Below are positions 2 to 22,575 of a stretch of DNA of 25,794 bases, in pieces (position 1 is the first letter of the stretch; each line of letters begins with the position of its first letter). Below the pieces are notes generated by a model. That model ran no database searches, was not told the origin of the DNA, and saw nothing but the letters and a program-made list of their open reading frames with translations. Origin of the DNA: a virus; the IMG/VR virus record IMGVR_UViG_3300026257_000022, positions 1-25,794 of that record. One strand, 5' to 3'. A program made the translations under genes and the position numbers.

Positions 2-3000
2 ACTACAACAACAACTTGGAGTACAGACCGAAATACCATTACAACATATAATACAATTACAGAATTTGATACTATTACTACTTATAATACTACTAAGTCA
101 ACTACTACGACTTACAATACCACGTTAGCAACTTCCACTTCAAAAAATACTTCTACTTCAAAAACAACTATTACTACTTATAATACCACCCTGGTAACAA
201 TAGAAACACGAAATACGTCTACTTCAAAAACCACTTCGACAACTTTTAATACTACAGCAAGTACGACAACTACTTATAATACCATTACAACTTATAGTAC
301 AATTACAACTTATGAAACTCAAAAAGCAACTACCACAACTTATGAGACTTCAAAATCAACAATAGAAACACGAAATACTTCTACTTCAAGAAATACGACT
401 ACAATTTATAATACGACATTAGCAACTCTTGAATCAAGAGGAACATCGACTTCGAAGAGTACCACTACAACTTTTGAAACTTCAAAAAATACTACCACGA
501 CTTATAATACAATTACAACGTATAATACTATTACTACTTATGAAACTACACTTGCGACTATTACTACTTATGAAACTACTCTAATAACAATAGAAACACG
601 AAATACTTCTACATCAAGAATCACTTCAACAACTTTTAATACTACAGCAAGTACGACAACCACGTATAATACGATTACTTCATATATTACGATTACAGCG
701 TATCAAACTCAAAAGGCAACTACTACAACTTATAATACCACTAAGTCTACCACTACTTCTAAAAATACTTCTACAAGTAAATCAACTACCACGACTTATA
801 ACACTACGTTGGCAACGTCTACTTCAAGGAATACGTCTACTTCAAAAACTACGTCAACAACTTTTAATACCACACATAGTACAATTACAACGTATAATAC
901 GATTACAGAGTATAATACAATAACAACCTATAATACTTCTAAGTCAACTACTACGACTTATAATACTACGTTAGCAACGTCTACTTCAAGGAATACGTCT
1001 ACTTCAAAAACAACTATTACTACTTATAATACTTCTAAAAATACTTTAGAAACAAGGTCGACAAGTACATCAAAATCAACCACTACGACTTATAACACGA
1101 CTCAAAGTACAATTACAACGTATAATACTATTACTACGTATGCTACTATTACAACTTATGAAACACAAAAAGCAACTACTACGACTTACAACACTACGTT
1201 AGCAACCTCAACGTCTAAAAATACTTCCACTTCAAAGAATACGACCACAACTTATAATACTACGTTATCAACTATTGAAACGAGGAGTACTTCTACTTCA
1301 AGAAATACGACTACAACGTATAATACGTCAAAAAATACTATTGAACAGAGGGCGACACAGACTTCAAAGAATACGACCACAACTTATAATACGATTACAA
1401 CTTATAGTACAACTACTACTTACAATACCACACTTGAGACTATTACTACGTATAATACCACACTTACTACATCAACCGCTTATAGTACGATTACAGCGTA
1501 TGCAACTACTACAACTTATAATACTACACATAATACCACAACAACTTATAATACGATTACAACCTATAGTACAACTACTACTTATGAGACTTCAAAGGAC
1601 ACCACGACTACTTTTACTACGATTACAACTTATAGTACAACTACTACTTACAATACCACAACACTTACGATTACTAAGTATAATACGACATTAGCAACAA
1701 TAGAATCAAGAAATACTATTACTTCTCATTCAACTACTACTGCGTATGCTACCATTACTACGAAGTCAACTATTACCACGTATAATACTTCTAAAAATAC
1801 TTTAGAATCGAGGGCGACAAGTACTTCAAAAGAAACTATTACTACTTATAATACCTCAAAGGCAACTATAACAACTTATAATACCTCGAAAAATACTTTA
1901 GAAACACGAGCAACAATTACTTCACACTCTACGATTACTACCTACAATACTACGCTATCAACGATAGAACAGAGGTCAACGGCAACTTCACATACCACTT
2001 CTACACAATATACTACAATTACAACTTATAGTACAACTACTACTTACAATACCACACTTTCTACGACAACTACCTATAATACTACACTTGCCACTATTGA
2101 GTCAAGGAATACTATCACTTCAAAGGATACGAGTACAACTTTTAATACTACACATAGTACAACAACCGTTTATAGTACTATTACTTCGAAGAATACGATA
2201 ACAACTTATCAGACACAGAAGGCAACTACAACAACGTATAATACGACATTAGCAACGATAGAATCAAGAAATACCAGCACTTCACATACAACTTCTACCA
2301 CGTATAATACTTCTAAAAATACTTTAGAAACAAAAGCAACAGCTACGTCACACTCTACAAGTACTGCGTACACGACTATTACTGCTTATGCAACTATTAC
2401 AACTTTTGAGACTTCAAAGAATACTATAGAATCGAGGTCAACGGCAACTTCTAAAAATACGAGTACGACTTATAATACCACACTCTCTACGACAACTACT
2501 TATAATACTATTACGGTTTATATTACGACCACAACTTATAATACTTCAAAGAATACTTTAGAATCACGAGCAACGATTACTTCGAAGAATACCATAACTA
2601 CATATAATACTATTACTTCGAAGAATACGTCTACTACTCATTCAACCATAGAATCGAGAACTACGTCTACATCGTGGTCCACAGGTGCAAATACTACTGC
2701 TACAACATCAACTTCAAAGAGTACAAATACTAACACAATTACAACGTATAATACGATTACATCTCATAATACTTCCACTTCGTATTTTACTAATTTTACT
2801 ACGACCTACATAACTACTTGGCTGACTCTTGCTCGAGGAAAATGGAAAAATACTTCAAAAAGTACTACAAAAAATACTAAACGTATAACGAGTAAAAATA
2901 CAAGTGAAAATGTTGCAACGTCAACTTCAAAAAATACAAGTACAGCTACCATAACTACGTATAACACGAATACGACTTATATCACAGGAACTATTACTCA

Positions 3001-6000
3001 ACAGGATACAACAACTATTTATTCTACCATAACTACATATAATACGATTACTTCTTATGCGACTGCTACTTCGAAGAATACGATAACGACTTATGTTACA
3101 ATTACTAATTATACTACAAGTACAACGTATAATACGACTAAAAGTACTGCTACTTCACACGCCACGGCTACTTCACATAGTACGATTACCACCTATAATA
3201 CTTCGAAAAATACGTTAACTACCTATAACACAATCACCGCTTATAGTACGAGTACAATATTTAATACCACACAAAGTACGACAACTACCGCAAGTACAAT
3301 TACGTCTAAAAATACCATTACAACTTATAATACAATTACTGCTTATATTACAAGTACAACGTATAATACTTCCCACGATACGATTACCACTTATAATACA
3401 ATTACTATTTATTCGACTATTACAACTTTTAATACGTCAACACTTACGATTACGAAGTATAATACTTCACACTCAACTTCTACCGCTTATAATACGATTA
3501 CTTCGCACTCTACGATTACAACTTATAATACTTCGAGAGATACTTCTACCGTGTACGCTACTACTACTATTTATTCGACTATTACAACGTTTAATACTTC
3601 ACACTCAACTATTACCACTTTTAATACTTCTCATAGTACGATAGAAACAAGAGGAACAATTACCTCACATAATACGATTACCACTTATAATACAATTACT
3701 GCTTACGCAACGATTACAACTTTTGAGACTAATCATAGTACAATTACATCGTATAACACAATTACTGCTTATATTACAAGTACTACTTACAATACCACAC
3801 TTGAGACTATTACTACGTATAATACTTCACACGCTACCATAACTACATATAATACGATTACTTCTTATATTACGAGTACAACTTTTAATACTACTCAAAG
3901 TACAATTACAGCGTATAATACAATTACTACTCATAGTACAATTACTTCGTATAATACAATTACTATTTATTCTACGATTACAACTTTTCAAACACAAAAA
4001 GCAACTATTACTACGTATAATACTTCACACTCAACTATTGAGACACGAAATACGTCTACTTCTCGTATAACGTCTACCACTTTTAATACTTCTCATAGTA
4101 CGATAGAAACAAGAGCAACGTCAACTTCACATAGTACGATTACGACCTACAATACTTCACATAGTACTATTGAACAACGGAGTACTATTACTTCAAAAGA
4201 TACTACTACTACTTACAATACCACACACGCAACTATTACCACTTTTAATACTTCTCATAGTACGATAGAAACAAGAGCAACGTCAACTTCACATAGTACG
4301 ATTACAGAGTATAATACAATAACTACTTATACCACATCTACAACTTATATTACTACACACGACACCACGACAACATTTAATACTATTACAACTTATAGTA
4401 CAATTACAACTTTTGAAACGAGTACTACTACTACCACAACTTATGATACAATTACAACTTTTAATACTATTACAACTTTTAATACGTCAACACTTACGAT
4501 TACTAAGTATAACACTACTACATCAACCATTGAAACACGAAATACGTCTACTTCTCATTCGACCACAACGACTTTTGAAACTTCACACGCTACCATAACT
4601 ACATATAATACAATTACAGCATATATTACAAGTACAACGTATAATACTACTGCAGAAACTACCACGACTTACGATACAATTACAACTTTTAATACTATTA
4701 CAACGTTTAATACTTCACACTCAACTATTACAACGTATAATACGACACACGCAACTGCTACGACATTAGCAACTGCAACTACAAAGTCAACTATTACAAC
4801 TTATAATACTTCGAAAGATACCACTACTACGTATGATACAATTACTACATTTAATACAATAACAACTTTTGAAACGGACACTACAACTATTACAACGTAT
4901 AATACAATTACAGAGTTTACAACTATTACAACGTATAATACGTCAACGCTTACGATTACAAAGTATGATACCTCAACTTCAACTTTAGAAACAAGGGCAA
5001 CGTCTACTTCAAAGAATACAATTACTACTTATGAGACTTCAAAGGACACCACAACAACATTTACTACGATTACAACGTATGAAACCACAACAACATTTAA
5101 TACCACACTTTCGACCATTACCACTTATAATACAACAACTGCAACCGCTACGACATTAGCAACCGCTACTTCACATAATACAACTACAACGTATAATACT
5201 ACACAAAGTACAATTACAACGTATAATACAATTACTTCATACATTACGACTACAACTTTTGAAACGAGTACTACTACTACCACAACTTTTGATACGATTA
5301 CAGAGTATACAACTATTACGACTTATAATACGTCAACACTTACGATTACTAAGTATAACACTACTACATCAACTATTGAGACAAGAGCAACTTCTACTTC
5401 AAAGAATACAATTACTACTTTTAATACTTCAAAAGATACTACTACTACGTATGACACAATTACAACTTATGAAACTACCACAACGTATAATACTACAGCA
5501 GAAACTACTACTACGTATGATACGATTACAACTTTTAATACGATTACAACTTTTAATACAGATACTACGACTATTACAACGTATAATACAACCAAAGCAA
5601 CTGCTACGACATTAGCAACTGCGACAACTAAATCAACTACCACAACTTTTAATACATCACAGGATACCACTACGACTTATGACACAATTACAACGTTTAA
5701 TACTATTACAACGTTTGAAACAGACACCACAACTATTACGACTTATAATACATCAACGCTTACTATTACAAAATATGATACTACTACATCAACTGCTACG
5801 ACATTAGCAACTGCAACTACAAAGTCAACTACTACAACGTATAATACGTCAAAAGATACTACCACAACTTACGATACAATTACAACTTTTAATACCATTA
5901 CAACGTTTGAAACAGATACTACAACCATTACAACATATAATACAATTACAGAGTATACAACCATTACAACGTTTGAAACAGACACTACAACTATTACCAC

Positions 6001-7858
6001 TTATAATACATCAACAGCAACTGCTACGACATTAGCAACTGCAACAACTAAATCAACCACGACAACATTTGAAACTTCAAAAGATACAACAACCACATAT
6101 GACACGATTACAACGTTTAATACGATTACAACGTTTGAAACAGACACTACAACCATTACAACTTATAATACTTCAACACTTACGATTACTAAGTATAACA
6201 CTACTACATCAACTATTGAAACTGCGGCGACAAGTACGTCAAAAAATACTACTACTACTTTTAATACTTCGCAGGATACTACAACTACGTATGATACGAT
6301 TACAACTTTTAATACTATTACAACATATGAAACGAGTACTACAACGTCTACGACTTTCAATACCACTACCACAACGTCTACGACTTACAATACTACACAG
6401 AGTACAATTACAACGTTTAACACAATTACAGAGTTTAACACTATAACAACATTTGAAACTTCAACGAGTACGATTACGACTTTTGAAACAGACACTACAA
6501 CTATTACAACGTATAATACGTCAACACTTACAATTACAAAGTATAGTACTACTACAACTTATCAAACTACCACAACTTTTAATACTACACAGAGTACAAT
6601 AACTACTTACAATACAATCACTACTTATGACACCGCAACAACTATGGCGACTGCAACGTCTAAATCAACCACGACAACATTTGAAACATCTAAAGATACT
6701 ACTACTATTTATGATACAACTACTACTTATGAAACCACGACAACTTTTGAAACAAGTACTACAACGTCCACGACCTATAACACTACTACATCAACTATTG
6801 AAACTGCGGCGACAAGTACATCAAAAGAAACTACTACAACTTTTGAGACTTCTAAGGATACAATCACAACTTTTGAAACTCAAAAACAAACTATTACAAC
6901 GTTTGAAACAGACACCACAACTATTACGACTTTCAATACCACTACCACAACGTCTACGACTTACAATACTACACAAAGTACTATAACTACTTATAATACG
7001 ATTACAACGTATAATACTATAACAACTTATAATACTTCGAAGGATACCATTACGACTTTTGAAACAGATACTACGACTATTACAACGTATAATACGTCAA
7101 CACTTACAACTACAAAGTATAGTACGATTACAGCGTATGCAACTACTACAACGTATAATACTACTCAAAGTACGATAACTACTTATAACACGATTACAAC
7201 TTATGACACCGCGACAACGATGGCGACTGCGACATCTAAATCGACTACTACAACTTTTGAGACTTCAAAAGATACAACAACTACTTTTGAAACAGACACT
7301 ACAACTATTACAACTTATAATACTTATAAAACTACTACGACAACGTTTAATACTACCGTATCAGCAAATACGACTTTAGCAACTGCTACTACAAAAAATA
7401 CTACTACAACTTTTGAGACTACTAAGAATACAACCACAACTTATGAAACGAGTACTACAACGTCTACTACATTTATTACCACGAAAAATACTACTACAAC
7501 GTATAATACTACTCAAAGTACGATAACTACTTATAACACGATTACAACTTATGATACTGCTACAACTTTAGCAACAGCAACGTCTAAATCGACCACAACA
7601 ACATTTGAAACATCGAAAGATACTACTACGATTTATAATACTACAACTACGACAAGTACAACTTATGAGACTTCAACTCTTACGATTACAAAATATACAA
7701 CAAGTACTACAACGTCTACGACTTATAACACGACTCAAAGTACAATTACAACGTATAATACAATTACAGAATTTGATACTATAACCGAATATACTACAAC
7801 GTTTGATACTATTACAACGTATACCACAAGTAGAATTACAGGTTACTATTATAGTTAA
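2..7858 (+). CDS. Giant Thr-rich repeat protein, putative fibre/adhesin (5' partial)
   Basis: The frame is open from base 2 to the TAA at 7856-7858, so at least 2,618 residues are visible and the start codon is upstream of the window. A TTG at 809 is an internal Leu in a repeat, not a start. Close to half the residues are Thr; the rest are mostly Asn, Ser, Tyr, Phe, Ile, Lys, Asp and Glu. I saw no Cys or Pro and very little Gly. The protein is built of x-T units of 6 residues (NT-ITTY, AT-STSK, ST-IETR) or 4 residues (NT-SK, NT-TL, ET-DT). Units in the first half carry many Lys, Arg and His; the second half has many Asp and Glu. The end is short and aromatic (GYYYS). High beta propensity and strand-like alternation suggest a fibrous beta structure. 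The position beside tail genes suggests a virion fibre or surface protein, which is inference. No known family is recognised. Confidence 0.85.
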   Translation, partial: TTTTTWSTDRNTITTYNTITEFDTITTYNTTKSTTTTYNTTLATSTSKNTSTSKTTITTYNTTLVTIETRNTSTSKTTSTTFNTTASTTTTYNTITTYSTITTYETQKATTTTYETSKSTIETRNTSTSRNTTTIYNTTLATLESRGTSTSKSTTTTFETSKNTTTTYNTITTYNTITTYETTLATITTYETTLITIETRNTSTSRITSTTFNTTASTTTTYNTITSYITITAYQTQKATTTTYNTTKSTTTSKNTSTSKSTTTTYNTTLATSTSRNTSTSKTTSTTFNTTHSTITTYNTITEYNTITTYNTSKSTTTTYNTTLATSTSRNTSTSKTTITTYNTSKNTLETRSTSTSKSTTTTYNTTQSTITTYNTITTYATITTYETQKATTTTYNTTLATSTSKNTSTSKNTTTTYNTTLSTIETRSTSTSRNTTTTYNTSKNTIEQRATQTSKNTTTTYNTITTYSTTTTYNTTLETITTYNTTLTTSTAYSTITAYATTTTYNTTHNTTTTYNTITTYSTTTTYETSKDTTTTFTTITTYSTTTTYNTTTLTITKYNTTLATIESRNTITSHSTTTAYATITTKSTITTYNTSKNTLESRATSTSKETITTYNTSKATITTYNTSKNTLETRATITSHSTITTYNTTLSTIEQRSTATSHTTSTQYTTITTYSTTTTYNTTLSTTTTYNTTLATIESRNTITSKDTSTTFNTTHSTTTVYSTITSKNTITTYQTQKATTTTYNTTLATIESRNTSTSHTTSTTYNTSKNTLETKATATSHSTSTAYTTITAYATITTFETSKNTIESRSTATSKNTSTTYNTTLSTTTTYNTITVYITTTTYNTSKNTLESRATITSKNTITTYNTITSKNTSTTHSTIESRTTSTSWSTGANTTATTSTSKSTNTNTITTYNTITSHNTSTSYFTNFTTTYITTWLTLARGKWKNTSKSTTKNTKRITSKNTSENVATSTSKNTSTATITTYNTNTTYITGTITQQDTTTIYSTITTYNTITSYATATSKNTITTYVTITNYTTSTTYNTTKSTATSHATATSHSTITTYNTSKNTLTTYNTITAYSTSTIFNTTQSTTTTASTITSKNTITTYNTITAYITSTTYNTSHDTITTYNTITIYSTITTFNTSTLTITKYNTSHSTSTAYNTITSHSTITTYNTSRDTSTVYATTTIYSTITTFNTSHSTITTFNTSHSTIETRGTITSHNTITTYNTITAYATITTFETNHSTITSYNTITAYITSTTYNTTLETITTYNTSHATITTYNTITSYITSTTFNTTQSTITAYNTITTHSTITSYNTITIYSTITTFQTQKATITTYNTSHSTIETRNTSTSRITSTTFNTSHSTIETRATSTSHSTITTYNTSHSTIEQRSTITSKDTTTTYNTTHATITTFNTSHSTIETRATSTSHSTITEYNTITTYTTSTTYITTHDTTTTFNTITTYSTITTFETSTTTTTTYDTITTFNTITTFNTSTLTITKYNTTTSTIETRNTSTSHSTTTTFETSHATITTYNTITAYITSTTYNTTAETTTTYDTITTFNTITTFNTSHSTITTYNTTHATATTLATATTKSTITTYNTSKDTTTTYDTITTFNTITTFETDTTTITTYNTITEFTTITTYNTSTLTITKYDTSTSTLETRATSTSKNTITTYETSKDTTTTFTTITTYETTTTFNTTLSTITTYNTTTATATTLATATSHNTTTTYNTTQSTITTYNTITSYITTTTFETSTTTTTTFDTITEYTTITTYNTSTLTITKYNTTTSTIETRATSTSKNTITTFNTSKDTTTTYDTITTYETTTTYNTTAETTTTYDTITTFNTITTFNTDTTTITTYNTTKATATTLATATTKSTTTTFNTSQDTTTTYDTITTFNTITTFETDTTTITTYNTSTLTITKYDTTTSTATTLATATTKSTTTTYNTSKDTTTTYDTITTFNTITTFETDTTTITTYNTITEYTTITTFETDTTTITTYNTSTATATTLATATTKSTTTTFETSKDTTTTYDTITTFNTITTFETDTTTITTYNTSTLTITKYNTTTSTIETAATSTSKNTTTTFNTSQDTTTTYDTITTFNTITTYETSTTTSTTFNTTTTTSTTYNTTQSTITTFNTITEFNTITTFETSTSTITTFETDTTTITTYNTSTLTITKYSTTTTYQTTTTFNTTQSTITTYNTITTYDTATTMATATSKSTTTTFETSKDTTTIYDTTTTYETTTTFETSTTTSTTYNTTTSTIETAATSTSKETTTTFETSKDTITTFETQKQTITTFETDTTTITTFNTTTTTSTTYNTTQSTITTYNTITTYNTITTYNTSKDTITTFETDTTTITTYNTSTLTTTKYSTITAYATTTTYNTTQSTITTYNTITTYDTATTMATATSKSTTTTFETSKDTTTTFETDTTTITTYNTYKTTTTTFNTTVSANTTLATATTKNTTTTFETTKNTTTTYETSTTTSTTFITTKNTTTTYNTTQSTITTYNTITTYDTATTLATATSKSTTTTFETSKDTTTIYNTTTTTSTTYETSTLTITKYTTSTTTSTTYNTTQSTITTYNTITEFDTITEYTTTFDTITTYTTSRITGYYYS
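2678..3004 (+). other. Irregular insert within the Thr-rich repeat
   Basis: This stretch departs from the 4/6 pattern. It has consecutive 4-residue units, two Trp residues, Gly, and a Lys/Arg-rich part. It holds the only odd-length gap I found in the protein: the 9 residues LTLARGKWK (2822-2848) between two x-T positions. Before and after it the regular pattern resumes. It could be a hinge, a processing site or a junction between two separately evolved repeat arms. Its function is unknown. Confidence 0.7.
3613..3653 (+). repeat. 41-bp partial copy of the 69-bp block
   Basis: Identical over 41 bp to the start of the blocks at 4075 and 4237, and diverging after the AAGAG. This points to fairly recent in-frame duplication within the repeat gene. 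Confidence 0.8.
4075..4143 (+). repeat. 69-bp exact direct repeat, copy 1
   Basis: Identical over 69 bp to 4237-4305, with an offset of 162 bp (54 codons). The exact match contrasts with the synonymous scrambling elsewhere in the gene and suggests recent recombination. Confidence 0.85.
4237..4305 (+). repeat. 69-bp exact direct repeat, copy 2
   Basis: Second copy of the block at 4075-4143. Both copies are in the same reading frame and encode the same peptide, including an IETR unit. Confidence 0.85.
4487..4527 (+). repeat. 41-bp exact repeat, copy A of a ~845-bp higher-order period
   Basis: The same 41 bases, encoding the LT-ITKY unit and its flanks, occur at 5333 and 6173. The offsets are 846 and 840 bp (282 and 280 codons), suggesting duplication of a large multi-unit segment. 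Confidence 0.8.
5333..5373 (+). repeat. 41-bp exact repeat, copy B
   Basis: Identical to 4487-4527 and 6173-6213, and in the same frame. Confidence 0.8.
6173..6213 (+). repeat. 41-bp exact repeat, copy C
   Basis: Identical to 4487-4527 and 5333-5373. After this copy the following unit reads IETA in place of IETR. Confidence 0.8.
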
Positions 7859-7935: not shown

Positions 7936-8907
7936 ATGGCTAAAATGAAATCCGAAATGTTTGACCCGAACATTAAAGATGAACGTATAGGCGCATACGA
8001 AAAGAATCAATATTTGGTTGACAATCTCGCCGGCGTAGATAAATATTTCAGAAAACGAATGAAACGGCATACTACAGAGTTTTCTTATGATGTGATGGCA
8101 AACGAAATACCTTATTTTAAAACTATAAATTATACAGAATATGCTACCTCTTTTATGATGGTTCCTTTAAGTCAAATAATGAGGGAACAACAGATTAAAG
8201 ATGCTTATTATGATGAAGAGAGTGAAGACTACCCGGTATTAGATTGGGTAACATATTTTAAAGAGAATGTAGAAAATAAGGTATCTAACAAATATCAAGA
8301 CAGGGTAGATTTAACAGAAGACCCAAAGTTTGATAGGGAACTTGAAGCATTAGTAGTTTTGCCAGGTTCGAATAAAATAAAAAGTAGAGTTTGTTTAAAT
8401 AAATTGAAGACTATTAAAGAACGACACGGTACGAAGGTTGTATTTAAACCACACCCAATAACACAACATCAGATTATCGGAGAATTAAAAGATTTGTTCG
8501 GAGAGTCTTGTATATTACCTCGTGAAGCAGATTTGTATGCTTTTATGTTAAAGGTTCCGAGAATTTATACAACTAATATTAGTGAATCTTGTTTGTATGC
8601 TGTTTGTTTAGGAAAAGAAATAGGACACATAGAGGTACATCAGGATATGGCTTGGGGCTCTTTTTATCATATGAATTGGCCTATATTTCAATGTGAGGTT
8701 CGTGGTCAAGATACTCATTATTTTATTAATAAAGTTCTTTCAAGTCCGAAGTGTGGTATAATAAATCCAAAAGTAGATGTTAATTGGAAAAGAAAAATAG
8801 ATGATTATTTGACTTATATACATAAGGAGAGGGAGTTGTGGTATGAAGTATTTGTTCGTGACGACCCTATTGTTAAGCCGGAAGAATTTAAGAAGAAGAA
8901 ATCTTAG
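7936..8907 (+). CDS. Putative GT-B glycosyltransferase with KPHP motif (capsule/Kdo-transferase-like)
   Basis: This is a 323-residue protein with ATG at 7936 and a clear AAGGAG at 7923-7928. The second half has a GT-B style nucleotide-sugar region: a strand ending in VVFKPHP, with K171-P-H-P174, then a Glu/Ser-containing strand (TTNISES) and a Gly-Lys turn (CLGKEIGHI). KPHP motifs are known in polysaccharide transferases such as the KpsC/KpsS Kdo transferases and glycerophosphotransferases. The N-terminal 100 residues are not recognised. It heads the operon that includes a Kdo-8-phosphate synthase, which makes a Kdo transferase an attractive guess. The family is inferred from motif and context only. 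The exact substrate and acceptor are unknown. Confidence 0.5.
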   Translation: MAKMKSEMFDPNIKDERIGAYEKNQYLVDNLAGVDKYFRKRMKRHTTEFSYDVMANEIPYFKTINYTEYATSFMMVPLSQIMREQQIKDAYYDEESEDYPVLDWVTYFKENVENKVSNKYQDRVDLTEDPKFDRELEALVVLPGSNKIKSRVCLNKLKTIKERHGTKVVFKPHPITQHQIIGELKDLFGESCILPREADLYAFMLKVPRIYTTNISESCLYAVCLGKEIGHIEVHQDMAWGSFYHMNWPIFQCEVRGQDTHYFINKVLSSPKCGIINPKVDVNWKRKIDDYLTYIHKERELWYEVFVRDDPIVKPEEFKKKKS

Positions 8908-8917
8908 GAGTTTTTAA

Positions 8918-10312
8918 ATGAAGAAAGTTTTGATTAGAGACATAGTATTTGGAGGCGAAGATACACCTTTAATAGCTGGTCCTTGTGTTGTTGAAACATA
9001 TAAACTTGCGATAGATGTCGCAAAAGAACTTGTTAAAATAGGAGAAAAAACAAATACTCCTATAATATATAAGAGTTCTTGGGATAAAGCAAATCGGTCA
9101 TCTAATTCGTCTTACAGAGGTCCTGGTATGGAAAAAGGATTAGAAGCACTTAGACGAGTCAAAGATGAAACGGGATTACCTATACTTACAGATGTACACG
9201 AGGTTCATCAAATAAAAGAAATCGAGGACGTGGTAGATATAATTCAAATACCCGCATTTTTATGTCGCCAAACTGATTTGATAAAGGCCGCAGCACAGAC
9301 CGGCAAAGTAGTAAATGTTAAGAAAGGTCAGTTTTTATCACCCTGGGAAATAGAAAATGTAATAATAAAGATTACTGAAGAAGGAAATGAAAATATTCTA
9401 ATTACTGAACGTGGAACGCAATTTGGTTATCAAAATCTCGTTGTGGATATGAGGTCAATTCCTATAATGCAGGAATTCGGATTTCCTGTAATATTTGATG
9501 CTACACATAGCAATCAACTTCCTGGAGGAAATGGTACATCAACAGCAGGTATGAGAAATATGGTACCTTATCTCGCTAAAGCCGCTGTCGCTGTAGGTTG
9601 TGACGGATTGTTTTTTGAAACTCACCCGGACCCTGAAAATGCTAAATCAGACTCATCAACTCAATGGCCATTAGATAGTTTAGAAGAAGTAATTTCATCA
9701 TTAAAGATGAAACCCGCAAAACCACAAATGGTTGTATCTAATAAACAAAGTAAGGCTGAAATTTATAAACAGAGATTATCAGAAAAACTTAATCATAATG
9801 TAGTTAATTTTGAGGATATGGAAATCAGTACAGAAAATAATAAAGAATTTGATGATGGTTTTTTAAAAACTGCTGACAAGTTGATGTCCGAGAGAAGTCT
9901 ATCTGATTCACACCGAGTCTTAACTCAAGAAGATTTAGATAATATAAAGGATAAGAAAACAGAAGTTATTCTTAGTGATGGATATCTTGATACTTTAAAT
10001 CCATATGAGGTTGATGTTAATTTAGTATCTTTATTTAATTCAGCAACAAGATTAATATATATACAACTTGAACCTAAAAGAAGACCGGTTGATTGGTGGA
10101 TGGATAAATTTAATTTTTTAAGAGAACGACACGACCAAGAAGAGTTAGATATTTTTGTGGTTTTCAAAGCAGAACCATCAAAACTTAGGATGATTAGATT
10201 ACCTAATGATTATCATAAAAAGAAAGAACAGGAAGAAAAGAAACGTACTGAAAAGAAAGTTCCTTTAATTCGTTGGAATAACCCTAAAGACAAACCTAAA
10301 CCAAGGATATAA
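8918..10312 (+). CDS. kdsA: Kdo-8-phosphate synthase with unidentified C-terminal extension
   Basis: Residues 1-265 match KdsA, which condenses phosphoenolpyruvate and arabinose-5-phosphate to Kdo-8-phosphate. Hallmarks are K57-A-N-R-S-S62, SYRGPG, DVHE, PAFLCRQTDL, NVKKGQF and FETHPDP. Cys23 in AGPC, with His197, Glu234 and Asp245, matches the metal-binding set of the metal-dependent class (Aquifex type) and not the E. coli type, which has Asn in place of the Cys. Usual KdsA length is about 280 residues, but this protein has 464. The extra 190 residues contain a folded-looking part (about 350-430, ending DIFVVFK) and a Lys-rich tail, and I recognise no family. ATG at 8918 follows TAGGAG that overlaps the previous stop. 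Kdo is normally a core-LPS or capsule sugar, so a phage copy boosts or redirects supply. Confidence 0.9.
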   Translation: MKKVLIRDIVFGGEDTPLIAGPCVVETYKLAIDVAKELVKIGEKTNTPIIYKSSWDKANRSSNSSYRGPGMEKGLEALRRVKDETGLPILTDVHEVHQIKEIEDVVDIIQIPAFLCRQTDLIKAAAQTGKVVNVKKGQFLSPWEIENVIIKITEEGNENILITERGTQFGYQNLVVDMRSIPIMQEFGFPVIFDATHSNQLPGGNGTSTAGMRNMVPYLAKAAVAVGCDGLFFETHPDPENAKSDSSTQWPLDSLEEVISSLKMKPAKPQMVVSNKQSKAEIYKQRLSEKLNHNVVNFEDMEISTENNKEFDDGFLKTADKLMSERSLSDSHRVLTQEDLDNIKDKKTEVILSDGYLDTLNPYEVDVNLVSLFNSATRLIYIQLEPKRRPVDWWMDKFNFLRERHDQEELDIFVVFKAEPSKLRMIRLPNDYHKKKEQEEKKRTEKKVPLIRWNNPKDKPKPRI

Positions 10313-10316
10313 TAAT

Positions 10317-10661
10317 ATGCACACAGCAGGAAAAGTATGGGGCAAGACTGCTAATATTTTTTCTAATCCTAATTTTGAAGTACACAGGATAGAAGTAAAT
10401 AAAGGCGGGTTTTGTTCTAAACATAAACACAAATATAAATTTAATGCTTTTTACGTAGAAAGTGGTGAGTTAGAGATTATAATCTACAAAAATGATTATG
10501 ATTTAGTGGATACGACCGTTTTAAAAGCAGGTGATATGACCATTGCAAAACCAGGAGAATATCATAGTTTTAAAGCAAATTCTAAAACTATATGTTATGA
10601 GTTTTATTGGGCAGAATTAAATCACGATGATATAGAAAGAGAATCTGTAGGCGGTATTTAG
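10317..10661 (+). CDS. Small single-domain cupin protein
   Basis: This 114-residue protein starts 4 bp after the kdsA stop, with AAGGA just upstream. Cupin motif 1 is visible as H36-K-H38 followed by FYVESGEL, and motif 2 as G72..KPGEYHSFKAN with H83 and N88. The usual motif-1 Glu is replaced by Asn43, so metal binding may be altered. Short cupins in sugar operons are often isomerases or epimerases. One possibility is a role in supplying the pentose phosphate for KdsA, but nothing in the sequence proves that. Its stop overlaps the next start by one base (TAGTG), so translation is probably coupled. Confidence 0.7.
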   Translation: MHTAGKVWGKTANIFSNPNFEVHRIEVNKGGFCSKHKHKYKFNAFYVESGELEIIIYKNDYDLVDTTVLKAGDMTIAKPGEYHSFKANSKTICYEFYWAELNHDDIERESVGGI

Positions 10662-11434
10662 TGTTAACGATTCCTATTGAAGAGTTAGTTCGAGATAAAA
10701 GAGTTATTCTTGTAGGTAACTCTGTAGAAATGATGAGTTATGAATATGGTGATTTTATTGATTCATTTGATATTGTAATACATCACGGTGCGAGTATAGC
10801 GAGAACTCCGTCAATGTTCAAAAATCTCGGTAGTCGAACTGATATATGGGTAACAGGGTCTTTTAGGATGAATACCTATAAGACTATTCCTCGAGAATTT
10901 TACGATGGTAGATATAAAGATACTATGGTATTATTTAACAGGGTTAGAACTAAATTATTAGATGTAGATTGTCAAGTGAGATGGGAAAATACATTACCTG
11001 ATATACCAAGAATAGATATGTTTCACGATATTGAACTAATACAAATGTTAGACTCATTGGATTATATGTCCGGATTCGGTGACGGGTATAGAGGCCCTGT
11101 AGATGGTATGAGACCTTCAGGCGGATTTATGTCTATATTATATTTTACTAAAAAAGTAACTACATATAAAAGTTTTGACATAATAGGGTTTGATTTTTTC
11201 AGAAAAATAACAGAGACAACGAGAGAAGAAAGTGCAAAACCATATAGTTGGCATCTACCTATAAGAAAAGATAAAGGTGGACATCCACACAACGCAAAAT
11301 TAGAGTTTGACTATGTATCTAAGTTAGAAAAAGAAAAAAAGATAACGTGGAATATTTTATCTAATTTAAATAAAGAGACTATAAAATATGATAAGAATTG
11401 GATATCCGGCAGTATTTTTGATAATTGGTCATAA
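10661..11434 (+). CDS. GT29-like (sialyltransferase-fold) glycosyltransferase
   Basis: This 257-residue protein starts at GTG 10661, overlapping the cupin stop. It carries the motif series of family GT29: an L-motif-like stretch with V18-G-N-S21, YG..IDS.D and G57-S-R-T-D61; an S-motif-like R151-P-S-G-G-F156 followed by a hydrophobic helix and IIGFDFF; and a late His210...Glu215 pair (HNAKLE) like motif VS. GT29 enzymes use CMP-activated acidic sugars. They transfer sialic acid in animals, and plant members are linked to Kdo addition in pectin. With kdsA two genes upstream, CMP-Kdo is the natural donor candidate, but the donor is inferred. It has no signal peptide or membrane anchor, so it probably acts in the cytoplasm. 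Confidence 0.75.
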   Translation: MLTIPIEELVRDKRVILVGNSVEMMSYEYGDFIDSFDIVIHHGASIARTPSMFKNLGSRTDIWVTGSFRMNTYKTIPREFYDGRYKDTMVLFNRVRTKLLDVDCQVRWENTLPDIPRIDMFHDIELIQMLDSLDYMSGFGDGYRGPVDGMRPSGGFMSILYFTKKVTTYKSFDIIGFDFFRKITETTREESAKPYSWHLPIRKDKGGHPHNAKLEFDYVSKLEKEKKITWNILSNLNKETIKYDKNWISGSIFDNWS

Positions 11435-12141
11435 TGAACGTTTATATAGGATATGATAGTAGACAAGATTATTCTGAAAATTTTTCAGGTGTTGTTAATC
11501 CTCCATATCAAGTATCGAAGTATTCGATAGAAAAATATAATAAGAGTGTAAATATAGAACCTATAATTATTTCAGAATTAAAATTAAAAAATCTTTATTG
11601 GAGAAATACAGACTATTTATCAAGTACAGAATTTGTTTATAGTAGATTTCTCACTCCGTATTTAAACGGTTATGACGGATTAGCGTTATTTTGTGATTCT
11701 GATTTTTTGTGGCAAACAGATGTTAATGAGATATTAGATTATTATGATGAAAAATATTCTGTTATGTGTGTAAAACATAATTATACACCGCCGGAGAGTA
11801 CTAAAATGGATGGCAGAGCACAAACTCATTATCCAAGAAAAAATTGGTCGAGTCTTATGTTATTTAATTGCTCACATCCGGATATTAAAAAATTAAGTGT
11901 TAAGAATATTAATACGAAAAATGCAAAGTGGTTACATAGATTTGAATGGACAAGTGATGAGTGTATCGGAGAAATTCCAGCAACTTTCAATTGGTTAGAA
12001 GGTTGGTATAATGATAGAATTAACCCGAAAGCAATTCACTATACACGTGGAGGTCCGTGGCATACTACGTGGAATGGCCATTATAAAGAACAATGGTTAG
12101 AAACATATAACGAATTAGTTAAGGAGAAATCAAATGGCTAA
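11434..12141 (+). CDS. GT8-like glycosyltransferase (GT-A fold, DxD)
   Basis: This 235-residue protein starts at ATG 11434, which overlaps the previous stop by one base (TAATG). An upstream TTG at 11425 is possible but less likely. The N-terminus has a GT-A start (YIGYDSRQ) and a variable middle. The metal-binding D88-S-D90 sits in LFCDSDFLW. Late in the protein, H202 and GGPW (206-209) match the conserved C-terminal GT8 signature. GT8 enzymes transfer Glc, Gal or GlcNAc-type sugars from nucleotide donors. As part of the same operon it may extend or cap the sugar added by its neighbours. The acceptor is unknown. It overlaps the next gene by 8 bp. Confidence 0.7.
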   Translation: MNVYIGYDSRQDYSENFSGVVNPPYQVSKYSIEKYNKSVNIEPIIISELKLKNLYWRNTDYLSSTEFVYSRFLTPYLNGYDGLALFCDSDFLWQTDVNEILDYYDEKYSVMCVKHNYTPPESTKMDGRAQTHYPRKNWSSLMLFNCSHPDIKKLSVKNINTKNAKWLHRFEWTSDECIGEIPATFNWLEGWYNDRINPKAIHYTRGGPWHTTWNGHYKEQWLETYNELVKEKSNG

Positions 12142-12500: not shown

Positions 12501-14927
12501 ATGGCAGAACGAATTGTATCTCCCGGTGTATTTACCCGAGAGAAAGATTTATCCTTCTTGCCACAAGGTGTCGCAGAGATTGGAGCCGCAGTTGTCGGAC
12601 CAACTCTTCGAGGACCTGCTTTTACTCCTACCGTAATATCTTCAGCAAGTGAATTTGAAGCACAATTCGGTGCTATTGGTGGTACTAAAAACTACTATAC
12701 CGGAATTGCAGTACAAAGATATTTGAATGGCGGAGCGCCAAGTGTAACGGTAGTTAGAGTATTAGGCATTGGAGGATACAAAACAGATGCGATGAACGTA
12801 GTAATAAATACAGGAACTTACAATAATAGGATTCTCGCAACCTTAGCACCATCAAACAAACATCAAGCAGGAATAGGTGATTTATCATCTACTTCAGCAA
12901 GTCGCGGTCCAAATGATGCCGCAGCAAAAGATACAGCAGATTACGCTGAAGATTCATTTGTAATAGATGTATCAGGTTCAGATATAACCCATACAAAAAT
13001 ATTAGGTGCTAATCTTTCAGGTGGCGACCCTAATAGTCTTACAGATGACCCGCAAGATAGTAATAACCATCTTTATATGTACAAATATTTCAATAAAGGC
13101 GGAGATGTTCCAGGAGGTCAAACCGTTACAGGTGATGCTACGATTTCCTCTTCATTAGTAACATTGAATTTTGCAGATGGTGTTCAATCATTTGATGCAA
13201 ATGGAAATGCTTCTACTTGGACAGGTAATAGTTCATATTCTGTAGCAAGAACACCATACATTATGTCACAAAGACTAAATGGTGGTTCAGCGACTAATCT
13301 ATTTAGATTTTATACTCGCGGTGCAGGTGCTGAATTGAACGAAAAATGTCACATTGGTATTACGAATATTAAAGCGGCGGCAACTGCGAACACATCACCG
13401 GATTGGGCTCAGTTTGACGTACAAGTTTATTTGAAGGATGACCAAAATGTATTCTCAGCAGTAGAGAATTATAATGGATGTAATTTAGACCCTGAAAGTG
13501 CTAATTATGTAGTTAATATGATTGGTGATGGACACGAATCAACTGATAATCAAGGTAAAATAACCAAGTATGGTGGATTTGGCAATAGGTCTAAATTTAT
13601 TAGAATCGGTGATTATACCGGAATAGAAGATGGTAAGAATAAAGCGTACGCTCCAATGGGATTTAATAAAGTTAGTAATCCTACACCTGGAGGCACAAAT
13701 GTACCGACAGCATCTTTTGTGACAAGTTCAGATTCAGATAACATTTTTGAGCCAGGTCAATTTCCAGGTTGGGATTTCGCAGGCACTAATTATGTTAATG
13801 GCACTTATTTAGCACCAATTCCTTTGGATGCCGGAACAGGTGCGAACGTAACTTTCTCACTTGAAGATTGTAATGGTACAAACGGTGGTAATCCAGGATT
13901 TGCTGGTTTGGATACGAAATTATCATTGGCTTCAGGTACAAACGTACAACAACGTAAGTTTAAAGTGCCTATGCAATGGGGATTTGATGGAGATAATCCT
14001 GCTCGTAATATTTACTTCGGTAATGATATCGTAGGAAATAATACACAAGGATTTGATTGTTCATCAGCAACTACAAGTGGTTCAGTTGCTTATAAGAAAG
14101 CATTGAATACAATTCAAGACCCGGACTTTATTGACATTAATATGTTAGCAACTCCAGGTATTATTCACGCTTATCATTCGACCGTTACTAACAGAGCAAT
14201 AAGCATAGCTTCTAATCGTGGCGATTGTTTTTATATAATGGACGGCTCTAAATATAACGAGAGTGTAACAAATGCTGTAAGTAATGTTGGTGGTTTAGAT
14301 AACAACTATGTTGCGACTTACTTTCCTTGGGTACAAATACCAAACCCAGGAGGCGGACCTAATCTTTGGGTTCCACCATCAGTAGTTATGTTAGGTGTAT
14401 ATGCTAACAACGATAGAATCGGCCAGGAGTGGTTTGCTCCCGCAGGTTTAAATCGAGGTGGTATAGCCGCACTTGACGTTAAGAAGGTCTTGACTCATAC
14501 AGATAGAGATGAGTTATATGATGGAAGAGTTAATCCGATTGCTTCTTTCCCAGGACAGGGAATTGTAGCATTTGGTCAGAAGACTCTACAATCAAGACCA
14601 TCAGCGCTTGATAGAGTAAATGTTCGTAGATTATTAATTAACTTGAAGAAGTTCATAGCATCATCTTCGAGATTCTTAGTATTCGAACAGAACACAGCGG
14701 CGACAAGAAACCGTTTCTTGAACATTGTCAATCCATATATGGAGTCTGTACAACAACGTTCAGGTCTCTCGGCATTCAGAGTAGTAATGGATGATTCCAA
14801 TAATACTCCTGAAGTAGTAGATAGAAACCAATTAGTTGGTCAAATCTTCTTACAGCCTACGAGAACTGCAGAGTTTATTGTACTTGACTTTGTTGTATTG
14901 CCAACAGGCGCGGCATTCCCTGAGTAA
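12501..14927 (+). CDS. 18: Tail sheath protein (T4 gp18-like)
   Basis: This is the contractile sheath subunit that surrounds the tail tube. The N-terminus (ERIVSPGVFTREKDLS, then GAAVVGPTLRGPAF and the FGAIGG...YLNGGAPSVTVVRVLG stretch) and the C-terminal region from about residue 700 (VNVRRLLINLKKFI, FVFEQNTAATRNRFL-like stretch, then GLSAFRV and TAEFIVLDF) are typical of T4-type sheath proteins. At 808 residues it is longer than T4 gp18 (about 659). The excess lies in the variable middle (about 95-560), rich in Gly, Asn and Ser, which probably forms surface domains. ATG 12501 follows AGGAGA at 12490. A strong terminator lies downstream. Confidence 0.93.
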   Translation: MAERIVSPGVFTREKDLSFLPQGVAEIGAAVVGPTLRGPAFTPTVISSASEFEAQFGAIGGTKNYYTGIAVQRYLNGGAPSVTVVRVLGIGGYKTDAMNVVINTGTYNNRILATLAPSNKHQAGIGDLSSTSASRGPNDAAAKDTADYAEDSFVIDVSGSDITHTKILGANLSGGDPNSLTDDPQDSNNHLYMYKYFNKGGDVPGGQTVTGDATISSSLVTLNFADGVQSFDANGNASTWTGNSSYSVARTPYIMSQRLNGGSATNLFRFYTRGAGAELNEKCHIGITNIKAAATANTSPDWAQFDVQVYLKDDQNVFSAVENYNGCNLDPESANYVVNMIGDGHESTDNQGKITKYGGFGNRSKFIRIGDYTGIEDGKNKAYAPMGFNKVSNPTPGGTNVPTASFVTSSDSDNIFEPGQFPGWDFAGTNYVNGTYLAPIPLDAGTGANVTFSLEDCNGTNGGNPGFAGLDTKLSLASGTNVQQRKFKVPMQWGFDGDNPARNIYFGNDIVGNNTQGFDCSSATTSGSVAYKKALNTIQDPDFIDINMLATPGIIHAYHSTVTNRAISIASNRGDCFYIMDGSKYNESVTNAVSNVGGLDNNYVATYFPWVQIPNPGGGPNLWVPPSVVMLGVYANNDRIGQEWFAPAGLNRGGIAALDVKKVLTHTDRDELYDGRVNPIASFPGQGIVAFGQKTLQSRPSALDRVNVRRLLINLKKFIASSSRFLVFEQNTAATRNRFLNIVNPYMESVQQRSGLSAFRVVMDDSNNTPEVVDRNQLVGQIFLQPTRTAEFIVLDFVVLPTGAAFPE

Positions 14928-15086: not shown

Positions 15087-15575
15087 ATGCCTGATATGAT
15101 AGATGCAGCTGAGATATTTTTTACACCGTTCGAGCCAAAAACGAAAAATCGTTTTATTATGGAAGTCGAAGGTGTACCAAGTTTCTTGATTAGAGCCGCC
15201 AATCGTCCGTCAATAGAATTTGAAGAGATTGAATTAAATCACATTAATGTTAAGCGGTATGTGAAAGGTAAAGCTTCTTGGCAACCTTTAGACATTACTC
15301 TTTATGACCCAATCGTACCAAGTGGTGCTCAAGCAGTTATTGAGTGGATAAGACTTGGTCACGAATCAGTAACAGGAAGAGACGGATATTCTGACTTCTA
15401 TAAAAAGAATGTTAATTTCCAATTACTTGGCCCTGTTGGTGATGTTGTTGAAAAATGGGACCTTAAAGGAGCTTATATTCAATCTGCAAATTTTGGTGAT
15501 TTGGATTGGTCAGTTAGTGAACCTGTAGACATAACTTGTACTTTACGTTATGACTACGCAGTATTACAATTCTAA
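15087..15575 (+). CDS. 19: Tail tube protein (T4 gp19-like)
   Basis: This 162-residue protein matches the length of T4 gp19 (about 163). It has the typical tube-protein layout: a KNRF.MEVEGVPSFLI start, then an acidic strand (EFEEIELNH), KRYVKGKASWQPLDITLYDP, a helix (QAVIEWIR), and a final strand pair ending VDITCTLRYDYAVLQF. It forms the inner tube through which DNA passes. ATG 15087 follows AGGAGA at 15075. It directly follows the sheath gene, as in many myoviruses, but the portal gene that follows gp19 in T4 is not here. Confidence 0.92.
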   Translation: MPDMIDAAEIFFTPFEPKTKNRFIMEVEGVPSFLIRAANRPSIEFEEIELNHINVKRYVKGKASWQPLDITLYDPIVPSGAQAVIEWIRLGHESVTGRDGYSDFYKKNVNFQLLGPVGDVVEKWDLKGAYIQSANFGDLDWSVSEPVDITCTLRYDYAVLQF

Positions 15576-16775: not shown

Positions 16776-17378
16776 ATGAGTGACATTGTTGAAAATTTTA
16801 AGTATCTATCACAATCGTTAGAATTTGAAGATGACAGAATTAAATACGATAGGGGTGATGGTGTAATAGTCAATGTTATGATGACTTGGGAAAACCCTAT
16901 TATGTCTGCATCTGCAGAATATGTATGTCAAAATGGCGGTGATATAATAGAGTTTGGTTTCGGTATGGGAATCGCATCAAATTACATACAATCACAGAGT
17001 ATAAATTCACATACTATTTGTGAGATACATCCACAAGTAATAGAAAAGGCAGAGGCGTGGGCTGAAGGCAAGTCAAATGTAACTTTAATTACAGGTAGTT
17101 GGGTTACTAACAAAGATGAATTAGGTACATATGATGGTATATTTTATGATGCTGATTATACAAGTGATTTGTTACATTTTAGTGGTTCTGTAACGTCTTT
17201 GAGTAAGTCCGGCACTCTTCTTACTTTCTTTAATCCGGCATCATCAAGTTACAATTATTTACAAATACCTGTGGACGGTTATGACGAAGTTTCTGTAGAT
17301 GCTTCATCAGTAGACCCGCCACCTGATTATTGGAATACATCACAGAAAATATATTATATGCCTAAAAGAGAATTTTAA
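16776..17378 (+). CDS. Class I SAM methyltransferase, GAMT/RMT2-like
   Basis: This 200-residue protein carries the pattern of guanidinoacetate methyltransferase and arginine N-methyltransferase 2: VMMTWENPIM at about 35-44, then the SAM-binding glycine loop EFGFG with G61-F-G-M-G65, an acidic residue after the next strand (CEIHPQV), and YDGIFYDAD. It probably methylates a guanidino or amine group, perhaps on a phage or host protein. The acceptor is unknown. ATG 16776 follows CGGAG. It sits between the gp26-like gene and the tape measure, where other phages usually have no enzyme, so it looks like an inserted accessory gene. Confidence 0.75.
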   Translation: MSDIVENFKYLSQSLEFEDDRIKYDRGDGVIVNVMMTWENPIMSASAEYVCQNGGDIIEFGFGMGIASNYIQSQSINSHTICEIHPQVIEKAEAWAEGKSNVTLITGSWVTNKDELGTYDGIFYDADYTSDLLHFSGSVTSLSKSGTLLTFFNPASSSYNYLQIPVDGYDEVSVDASSVDPPPDYWNTSQKIYYMPKREF

Positions 17379-17420: not shown

Positions 17421-17603
17421 ATGAAAAATCAAATTAAAGAAGGTCTTATTGACAAGATTATGACTATGATAGCAAAAGGTCGTATAGATTCTAAAGTTAA
17501 AAAAATGATGAAAGACGACCCTGAATTTGCTAAACGCATAAAAAAAGCAAGAGACAATCAAAAACAAGCAGAAAAATCTTTACAGGCATTTCTTGACTCA
17601 TAA
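17421..17603 (+). CDS. 60-residue basic helical protein of unknown function
   Basis: A short Lys-rich helical protein (19-ish basic residues by eye) with the pattern KKMMKDDPEFAKRIKKA. ATG 17421 follows CGGAGA, and its stop overlaps the tape-measure start (TAATG at 17601-17605), so the two are coupled. The position directly before the tape measure suggests a tail-assembly role, which is inference. I recognise no family. Confidence 0.7.
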   Translation: MKNQIKEGLIDKIMTMIAKGRIDSKVKKMMKDDPEFAKRIKKARDNQKQAEKSLQAFLDS

Positions 17604-19546
17604 TGACACTTAAAGAAATAAAAGAACTTAAAAAAGAGCTAAAGGAAGTAAAGGACCTTCAAGCCGATATTACTAAAAATACAGCCCGTCGTAACAAGGA
17701 AGGCAAGTTAGGAGTTCAAGCCCAAAAAGAACTTAATGGGCTCAAAGAACGAGAAAAAAAACTTGCAGAAGATATAGCTGACGCGGAAGGTCCTCACGGT
17801 AGAGTTGCAAACATTAAAAAGACTATTTCTTTAACAAAGTCTTTTAATAAGATAGCAACTAATTCACAAAAAATATTATTAAAATCATTTGGTATTCAAA
17901 CAAATGAGTCTGAACTCTTAAAAACTATTCAAAAAGAAAAAACAAAAGGAAATAAAGCAGACCAAAATAAAATAAAAGCTTTAAACGCTGCGGCTGAATT
18001 AGAACAAGAATTTCTCAATGACTTAAAAGAAGGTAATTTTGTTGTAGAAGAAGCAGAATCTAAACTACAAGCATTGAAAGAAGAGTTCGAAGATATGGGT
18101 GATTCTTTTGCAACAGCTGTAGATGATTCTTTTAAAAATTTTCCTAAAATACAAAAAGATGCTGATAAAATTTCAAATGCATTAGAAACTGAAATACCAT
18201 TTCTTGACCAACTTGAGCAAATGAAAAAGAAAGCAAAAGATTTCGGAAATATGTTATTAAATCCGACGACCGCCGCATTAGCAGTAGTAGGGTTCATAGT
18301 CAAGAAAATGGTAGACTTTGCTAAGAAAGCAAAAGAGGTTAGACAAGATTTAGGTATCGTAGCAACTGATTCTGTTGTTTTATCAGCACAGATGTCTGCG
18401 GCGGGAGCGAGTGTAGCCGCACTTTCAGGTGATTCTCAAAAAGCACAAGATTCAATAAAAGCATTAGCAAATAGTATGAGTAGAATGCCTAATCTAAGTT
18501 TACAAACTTCGAGACAATTTGGTGCTATAGTAGCATTATCAGGTGCGACAGCAGAAGAGATGGCAACTATATTAGAGTTACAAACTCTGACTACAGCAGG
18601 TTCATCTGAAAAAGCAGTTCAAGATATAAAATCAGTAGAAGCGTTAGCAGAACAAGCAGGAGTATTAAAGAGTAAAGTATTTGGTGATGTAGCGGATGCG
18701 GCAAAAACTCAAGCATTCTTCTTTGGTAAGAGCGCAAAAGAGATTGCTAAAGCGGCGATTGATATGAGAAAACTCGGTATTAGTGCGAGTGCCTTAAATA
18801 ATGTAGCAGAATCAATTTTAGATTTAGAAACATCAATAGGAAAAGAATTTGAATTACAAACTTTATTTGGTAAAACTATAAATTTAAACAAAGCAAGACA
18901 AGCCGCATTTGAAAGAGATGGAGTTAAACTGAGTCAAGAATTAAGAAGGCAACTCGGAGGTCAATTTGATTTAAGTAAAGCAAATTATGCACAAGTTAAA
19001 TCATTGACAGAAGCATTTGGTTTAACACAAGAAGAACTACAAAAAGTTATACAAGGTCAAGATATTTTTAATTCTAAAGCTGAGGTAGGTAATACATTTT
19101 TTGAGACAATGAAAAAATCTGCAGTAGGTATAGGAATTGCGGTTGGTAGTCTTATTGGATTATTAATTGGGTTAAAAGCAGTAGCTACAGAAGGTATGAC
19201 CCTACCAGGTGATATAGCAAAAGTAGCAACGGCAACAGCAATTGGTGCAGGTTTAGGGTTTGGAGTAGGAAAAGCAGTTGAGCAATATAGTGTTGAAGAT
19301 AGTACTTTCAATAAAAAAGCAGTAGGTTCACTCACACCACCTGTATCAGTATCATCAAATGATGAGTGGTTTGTTTCTAAAGGTGAACAAGGTAGAATTG
19401 ATTTAGACTCAGCACGTAGAAGAGCTGCAGAACAAAAACAACTTGAAGCAACAGAAAGAGCAGAAAAAATAACAAAAGTTAAATTTGATGCTATGATATT
19501 AGCAGTTAACGATTTAGGTAGTAAACTTGTACGGGAGTTAGCTTAA
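17603..19546 (+). CDS. Tail tape-measure protein
   Basis: This 647-residue protein has a long helical, charged N-terminal part (coiled coil about 1-215, rich in Lys, Glu and Leu) and a hydrophobic segment at about 222-236 (TTAALAVVGFIV). A middle of Ala-rich helices (about 250-490) follows, then two close hydrophobic stretches at about 508-528 and 542-556 (Gly/Ala/Ile-rich), and a polar C-terminus. This layout fits a tape-measure protein, which sets tail length and leaves the tail at infection. The size is near T4 gp29 (590). It overlaps both neighbours by one base, and the gene upstream of the inserted enzyme is an assembly-chaperone-like gene with a frameshift, as expected for this position. 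Confidence 0.8.
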   Translation: MTLKEIKELKKELKEVKDLQADITKNTARRNKEGKLGVQAQKELNGLKEREKKLAEDIADAEGPHGRVANIKKTISLTKSFNKIATNSQKILLKSFGIQTNESELLKTIQKEKTKGNKADQNKIKALNAAAELEQEFLNDLKEGNFVVEEAESKLQALKEEFEDMGDSFATAVDDSFKNFPKIQKDADKISNALETEIPFLDQLEQMKKKAKDFGNMLLNPTTAALAVVGFIVKKMVDFAKKAKEVRQDLGIVATDSVVLSAQMSAAGASVAALSGDSQKAQDSIKALANSMSRMPNLSLQTSRQFGAIVALSGATAEEMATILELQTLTTAGSSEKAVQDIKSVEALAEQAGVLKSKVFGDVADAAKTQAFFFGKSAKEIAKAAIDMRKLGISASALNNVAESILDLETSIGKEFELQTLFGKTINLNKARQAAFERDGVKLSQELRRQLGGQFDLSKANYAQVKSLTEAFGLTQEELQKVIQGQDIFNSKAEVGNTFFETMKKSAVGIGIAVGSLIGLLIGLKAVATEGMTLPGDIAKVATATAIGAGLGFGVGKAVEQYSVEDSTFNKKAVGSLTPPVSVSSNDEWFVSKGEQGRIDLDSARRRAAEQKQLEATERAEKITKVKFDAMILAVNDLGSKLVRELA

Positions 19547-22571: not shown

Positions 22572-22575
22572 TGTT

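Follow-up and report, generated by a model that had tools for sequence, protein, structure and literature searches.

A threonine-coded phage protein with two mirror-matched arms and a glycosyltransferase-like partner may represent an undescribed class of glycosylated viral fibre

Known Peptidase_S74 phage tail fibres are parallel homotrimers of varied sequence. Among the enzymes that transfer sugars, a (K/R)xHP CMP-binding motif is common to sialyltransferases and Kdo transferases (PMC12887879). We analysed a marine phage in which a giant Thr-rich protein, written in a strict repeat grammar, is encoded directly upstream of a protein of 323 residues (P323) that carries this motif. The window is the whole 25,794-base IMG/VR virus record IMGVR_UViG_3300026257_000022; relatives with a giant Thr-rich protein number in the hundreds, and their loci are given L-numbers (L089 etc.). 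Computation established the repeat grammar and its unit parity, the equality of the arms and their mirror register, the linkage of the genes, the identity of KdsA and, in one relative, fusion of the repeat to a baseplate domain. The explanation that we favour, with a probability of about 0.6, is a glycosylated tail fibre of new architecture with antiparallel Thr-coded arms, whose Thr residues would be modified by P323. For parsing, a unit of the repeat protein was defined as 4 or 6 residues with T in second position (four-units and six-units); the features of the window are as follows.

2–7858, + strand: probable fibre protein with the Thr grammar; 2,618 aa visible, 5′ end lost at the contig start
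2–2689, + strand: arm 1 (truncated); four-units on a single unit parity, 43/43
2690–3037 (residues ~897–1012), + strand: irregular central insert; K-W-K at 2840–2848 skipped by the parser; parity flip
3038–7855, + strand: arm 2; four-units on a single unit parity, 88/89; mirror-correlated with arm 1
7936–8907, + strand: P323 (323 aa), GT-B-like; invariant K171-x-H173-P174; near-obligate partner of Thr-repeat genes
8918–10312, + strand: KdsA (3-deoxy-8-phosphooctulonate synthase); KdsA part at residues 15–264, ~200-aa C-terminal extension
10317–10661, + strand: cupin; Cupin_2 37.8 bits, cutoff 27.2
10661–11434, + strand: GT29 sialyltransferase-like protein; Pfam PF00777 20.0 bits, below the gathering score of 23
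11425–12141, + strand: P235, glycosyltransferase-like; phrog_28018, 47% identity to the DLP6 ‘nucleotide-diphospho-sugar transferase’
12501–14927, + strand: contractile tail sheath protein; phrog_23, E 6.8e-71
15087–15575, + strand: tail tube protein; phrog_4542
16776–17378, + strand: methyltransferase-like protein; homologues lie between both fibre genes of podoviral loci

Three large ORFs (647, 910 and 1073+ aa) follow 3′ of the tail tube gene at 17603–25794; a PHROG search with them gave no match, and two of the three weakly resemble tail-region proteins of phages immuto and Mel-JY01.

The 2–7858 ORF contains 1,230 Thr (47%), 0 Pro and 0 Cys among its 2,618 residues. Parsing by dynamic programming leaves 4 residues uncovered (K-W-K at 947–949 and the final S), compared to 136–200 (mean 172) for the same parse of 50 residue shuffles, which confirms the claim of an earlier note, made from the letters alone, that, save for one insert, the protein consists of xT units, each 4 or 6 residues long. 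Alternative length pairs perform far worse and leave at least 84 residues uncovered (84 for 5/7, 140 for 3/5). Without the insert (residues ~900–1012), the protein comprises 328 six-units and 134 four-units. Outside it, 132 steps lead from a four-unit to a six-unit and one to another four-unit, so that the reported succession of four-unit and six-unit holds, as part of a stronger parity rule: (i) consecutive four-units are separated by an odd number of six-units (1, 3, 5 or 7) in 132 of 143 intervals, the 11 even ones lying mostly within the insert, with odd/even ratios of 158/15 in L089 and 174/15 in L012; and (ii) one unit-index parity holds 131 of the 132 four-units outside the insert, divided between the arms as given in the list above. 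The even unit lengths keep residue parity, as had also been stated, and this parity switches once, at the central insert.

The restriction of four-units to alternate units means that the real module is the unit pair, of 12 or 10 residues, and the proposal that four-units are free register-preserving shorteners of a strand does not survive this. The two unit sides are unlike in composition, with Glu at position 4 in 20% of side 1 compared to 3% of side 2 in arm 1. Such a 12/10-residue pair would be expected if the chain formed a coil whose two sides differ, and we tentatively propose a solenoid-like coil as the fold of the repeat, at slightly less than even odds. The even-unit rule is looser, and the parity rule weaker, among the podoviral relatives and those at a greater distance. 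In the unit string of arm 1 of the window, module types form a super-repeat of ~22+22+22+10 residues (76, sometimes 54). The 12-residue TxT module brings to mind Tenebrio-type antifreeze coils, and a TxT solenoid surface with unmodified Thr, ice-binding-like or of another kind, may be considered; we regard it as very improbable, since the protein has 0 Cys, where insect-type coils carry a disulphide per coil, has no match among PDB sequences and is encoded beside a near-obligate glycosyltransferase-like partner.

The grammar is maintained at the protein level. NTITTY occurs in 23 copies with 21 distinct DNA spellings, and pN/pS among relatives is 0.20–0.40; together these values indicate selection on the protein and rule out DNA slippage or a repeat-array artefact. 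The Thr-repeat protein has no family match in Pfam, PHROGs or PDB sequences, in line with the earlier statement that no described family with this rule is known. Used as a protein query against its own record, PDB and Pfam, the repeat returned no matches, to which low-complexity filtering probably contributes, and as a DNA query against phage records it gave weak 66–70% matches in Staphylococcus phages only. A search of the literature for Thr-rich repeats in phages, for glycosyltransferases of phages and for Kdo in connection with phages found no description, in a coverage that included few subscription journals.

Seven complete single-gene relatives (860–3,312 residues) carry a low-Thr insert at 0.46–0.50 of their length; in the longest, L089+L096 with 3,312 aa, it lies at residue ~1,660. 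The short insert noted previously in the window protein is real, with the parity flip located there, and we reread it as the centre of a mirror-symmetric two-arm molecule, the expected midpoint or turn. Applied to the window gene, the equal-arm model predicts that ~720 residues are absent from its 5′ end, for a total near that of the 3,312-residue relative. Many relatives, podoviruses with terminases related to those of Flavobacterium/Cellulophaga phages, carry two Thr genes in place of one, and the repeat regions of the two match closely in length: over 28 pairs with lengths of 405–1,154, the median difference is 9 aa, compared to a mean of 142 and a minimum of 64 in a permutation null. Large exceptions are L027, where the first protein loses frame at its end, L055 and L082, where the first protein exceeds the second by ~130–140 residues while the register counted from the base end is preserved, and L127, a locus without P323. 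In L161 and L175 the midpoint insert is a 60–80 residue Cys-containing domain, a candidate receptor-binding tip. In L212 (899–2608) and L217 (1–2973) the first Thr protein ends in a sequence that is Hint/intein-like by eye (CVVEGTEV...ILTHN), for which Pfam gave no match.

The two arms resemble each other in reverse. Aromatic positions of arm 1 correlate with those of arm 2 reversed with r of 0.2–0.75 (median 0.45), compared to 0.21 for mismatched pairs, and the window gives 0.64 across 917 residues, where the unit-shuffle maximum is 0.30, in a null that, like ±60-residue shifts, is not stringent enough for periodic sequence. The comparison was therefore extended by scans over all shifts, by blocks and by further residue classes. 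The all-shift optimum lies 3–66 residues from zero in the 15 arm pairs shown, most of the 100-residue blocks in those pairs reach 0.4–0.9, and basic and aliphatic residues, which were not used in choosing the register, give the identical midpoint in L089, L012 and L013. Given the weakness of the unit-shuffle null, we regard it as stronger evidence that the offset stays constant at zero and that basic and aliphatic residues agree. In ~10 two-gene lineages with both marks, the N-terminal W of the first protein falls −4 to +6 residues from the C-terminal W of the second. The L120, L075 and L133 pairs show little mirror signal, and in the most periodic stretches, the window included, local palindromes outscore the midpoint: the mirror signal arises partly from quasi-periodicity. 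For the window we do not claim a unique exact hairpin register, as near-equal optima exist at +25, −51 and +47 and palindromes dominate its periodic stretches.

Reversed similarity can be produced neither by duplication nor by DNA inversion and thus requires a structural cause, of which antiparallel contact between the arms would be the simplest. Unit parity, midpoint inserts or equal lengths, and mirror register combine to suggest two equal antiparallel arms, an arrangement that we consider likely on sequence grounds. The fibre envisaged previously, with long extended β-strands packed in parallel, for example as a homotrimer, and even lengths keeping the side-chain faces, would equally account for even-length units throughout. 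It could also draw on a weak C-terminal match to Peptidase_S74, a chaperone typical of trimeric fibres, in L079 (19.5) and L133 (19.6), both below the cutoff of 22; by inspection, no S74 domain was seen at the C-terminus of the window protein. This parallel arrangement predicts neither the restriction of four-units to alternate units nor midpoint inserts nor matched two-gene lengths, and parallel alignment optima are scattered, so that we consider it unlikely.

Several lines of evidence point to the tail as the location of the Thr-repeat protein, in agreement with the earlier assignment to a phage fibre. In the window, sheath and tube genes lie downstream of the fibre gene, and in relatives the genes directly upstream resemble, by inspection, structural tail proteins of phage immuto. 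The syntenic place in phi18:3 holds virion proteins verified by MS, and the sub-cutoff Peptidase_S74 similarity at the C-terminus of L079 and L133 adds a weak indication. In phage DLP6 the repeat forms the C-terminal part of a protein with a baseplate-wedge N-terminus (phrog_17744, E 2.3e-236), and the same genome encodes P323, P235 and GT29-like genes. On this evidence, the Thr-repeat protein is very probably a tail fibre. The DLP6 protein (Stenotrophomonas phage DLP6 AAY80_265, L383 1408–5274) is annotated as baseplate wedge and has ~700 residues of xT repeat, broken by an apparent carbohydrate-binding-type domain.

The near-obligate neighbour of the repeat, the glycosyltransferase-like P323, was absent from the earlier note. 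It recurs beside Thr-repeat genes collected by DNA pattern alone: with at least 1 kb of downstream sequence, pattern-fetched Thr loci contain P323 in 46 instances and miss it in 11, of which several are cut and three (L023, L117 and L127) seem genuine. Conversely, among P323-fetched loci with upstream sequence, a Thr-rich ORF lies upstream in 60/60 (within 130 bases in 54), and a P323 clade that is ~20% identical shows the same in 76/76, nearly all of its loci also holding GT29-like and P235 homologues. Pooled across very different phages, the Thr-rich gene is upstream in 136/136 loci and directly upstream in 130, while none of 67 other viral KdsA loci used as control has one. In L023, midpoint mirror symmetry is still present in two residue classes with no P323 neighbour. 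Vibrio phage F86 (OZ196285, L381 4035–4640) has, upstream of its P323 homologue, an unannotated ~200-aa ORF rich in Thr/Ser, with two tiny CDS drawn within it. The linkage bears on the possibility that P323, KdsA and the GT-like genes modify host lipopolysaccharide during infection and adjoin the fibre gene by chance. In its favour, Kdo is a sugar of lipopolysaccharide, and viral contigs that have no Thr-repeat genes can carry KdsA too, but chance adjacency is difficult to reconcile with 136 of 136 loci, and we regard this explanation as improbable.

In an alignment of 34 P323 sequences, K171, H173 and P174 are invariant save for one aligned variant at P172, which is the (K/R)xHP motif used to test for retaining Kdo transferases (GT99/GT107/GT140). 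The QxxxD motif with the Asp nucleophile, which precedes the HP motif in these families, is not visible as an invariant motif in the alignment, where P323 has LPGSN in that region, and P323 is therefore not assigned to them. A structure model (pLDDT 85.6, pTM 0.84) was compared to the PDB by Foldseek, and the 13 best matches are all Kdo transferases (WbbB, KrkA, KpsC), the best with E 1.5e-5 and probability 1.00 but with TM of only 0.3–0.42. Given these TM values and the missing QxxxD, mechanism and donor of P323 are uncertain; it may be an inverting CMP-sugar transferase. We consider it likely that P323 acts as a glycosyltransferase on the Thr fibre, and slightly more probable than not that it uses a Kdo-type donor.

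A folded shaft may be contrasted with a largely unfolded, mucin-like brush, in which P323 and its partners would coat Thr with acidic sugar and no defined fold would exist. An AlphaFold2 run that covered the C-terminal 240 residues and included 7 relatives yielded pLDDT 26.7, pTM 0.12 and no secondary structure, and so lent nothing to the β-strand structure put forward previously; because the run used a single chain of one arm and a shallow alignment, its result is not decisive. Failure on one arm fits a need for the other arm, a brush, or a failure of the method. The brush would also accommodate 47% Thr and a near-obligate glycosyltransferase-like neighbour. It does not require unit parity, equal arms or mirror register, and 0 Pro in 2,618 residues is unlike the Pro/Thr/Ser-rich mucin domains; we therefore judge it, too, to be unlikely.

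For the favoured fibre of two antiparallel arms, the adjoining genes point to a possible sugar supply. KdsA next to P323 in the window exceeds the cutoffs of two NCBIfam equivalogs (NF003543, 393.7 vs 242; TIGR01362, 383.8 vs 314), and KdsA also lies beside P323 in L161/L162 and L168, making three lineages with the window. Its C-terminal extension (~200 aa, 9707–10309) has no match in PDB sequences or Pfam. L168 further encodes KdsB (TIGR00466, 185.8 vs cutoff 155.2), fused to a methyltransferase domain (3852–5126). GT29-like homologues occur in loci of the second P323 clade as well as in phage DLP6 (PF00777, 31.8 vs 23), and cupin, methyltransferase, 2OG-oxygenase, GT4 and GT25 genes are repeatedly found nearby. 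KdsA itself was rejected as a marker of the system on the control count given above, and the majority of P323 phages have no KdsA nearby; phages that have no sugar-supply genes could draw on host CMP-Kdo.

In the mechanism that we infer, which extends to glycosylation, sugar identity, fold and presence in virions, the 2–7858 ORF would form the shaft of a tail fibre from two-unit modules (6+6 or 6+4) joined end to end; every unit would present its Thr at position 2, and six-units usually a further Thr at position 4. The shaft would consist of two equal arms, antiparallel and in register, made in the window phage by one hairpin chain turning at the central insert and in related phages by two separate proteins. 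The N-terminus of arm 1 and the C-terminus of arm 2 would form the fibre base, and the tip would be the insert or, with two proteins, the domain at the C-terminus of the first. P323 would be a dedicated CMP-sugar-dependent glycosyltransferase, probably attaching Kdo or a Kdo-like sugar to Thr, with KdsA raising the supply of Kdo-type sugar and the GT29-like and P235 enzymes probably extending the glycan.

The results suggest a glycosylated viral fibre class that was previously undescribed. Its full form, with length-matched antiparallel Thr-coded solenoid-like arms in one chain or two genes, zipper-like mirrored units and Thr decorated by a phage CMP-Kdo-type transferase, in hundreds of contigs and several families, is a possibility that we advance tentatively and hold to be a little less probable than not. 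If true, pairing partner, arm length and register of a phage fibre would be legible from sequence, a rare structural code, and a Kdo-type sugar would be found on protein Thr, with candidate enzyme, sugar supply and acceptor encoded together. It would also provide a hypothesis of function for phrog_26179, as well as for genes left unannotated or called hypothetical in isolates such as KVP40, Lullwater, F86 and DLP6.

Compared to described systems, the protein shares with Peptidase_S74 phage tail fibres a long repetitive shaft, a tail gene neighbourhood and, in L079 and L133, a C-terminus with weak, sub-cutoff S74 similarity, and differs in that its shaft follows the Thr grammar and has two mirror-matched arms. 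Repeats of xT type occur in the isolate proteins DLP6 AAY80_265, KVP40.0254 and Lullwater gp41; their genomes carry P323 homologues, adjacent to or near the repeat gene in KVP40 and Lullwater, but the proteins are short or fused, have a looser grammar of mostly 4-residue units and bear the annotation hypothetical or baseplate wedge. Our phages share with Flavobacterium phage immuto and Cellulophaga phage phi18:3 a similar genome position and a related protein, the sheath in the window and the terminase in the podoviral group; those two phages hold other tail proteins in that place and no ORF with the Thr grammar. GT99 (WbbB), GT107 (KpsC) and GT140 (KrkA) are the best PDB fold matches of P323, at low TM, and share its (K/R)xHP motif, with a Ser 43 residues past the motif His in P323 and 44 in KrkA; they are encoded in capsule or LPS loci, whereas P323 is encoded by phages, beside a candidate protein acceptor.
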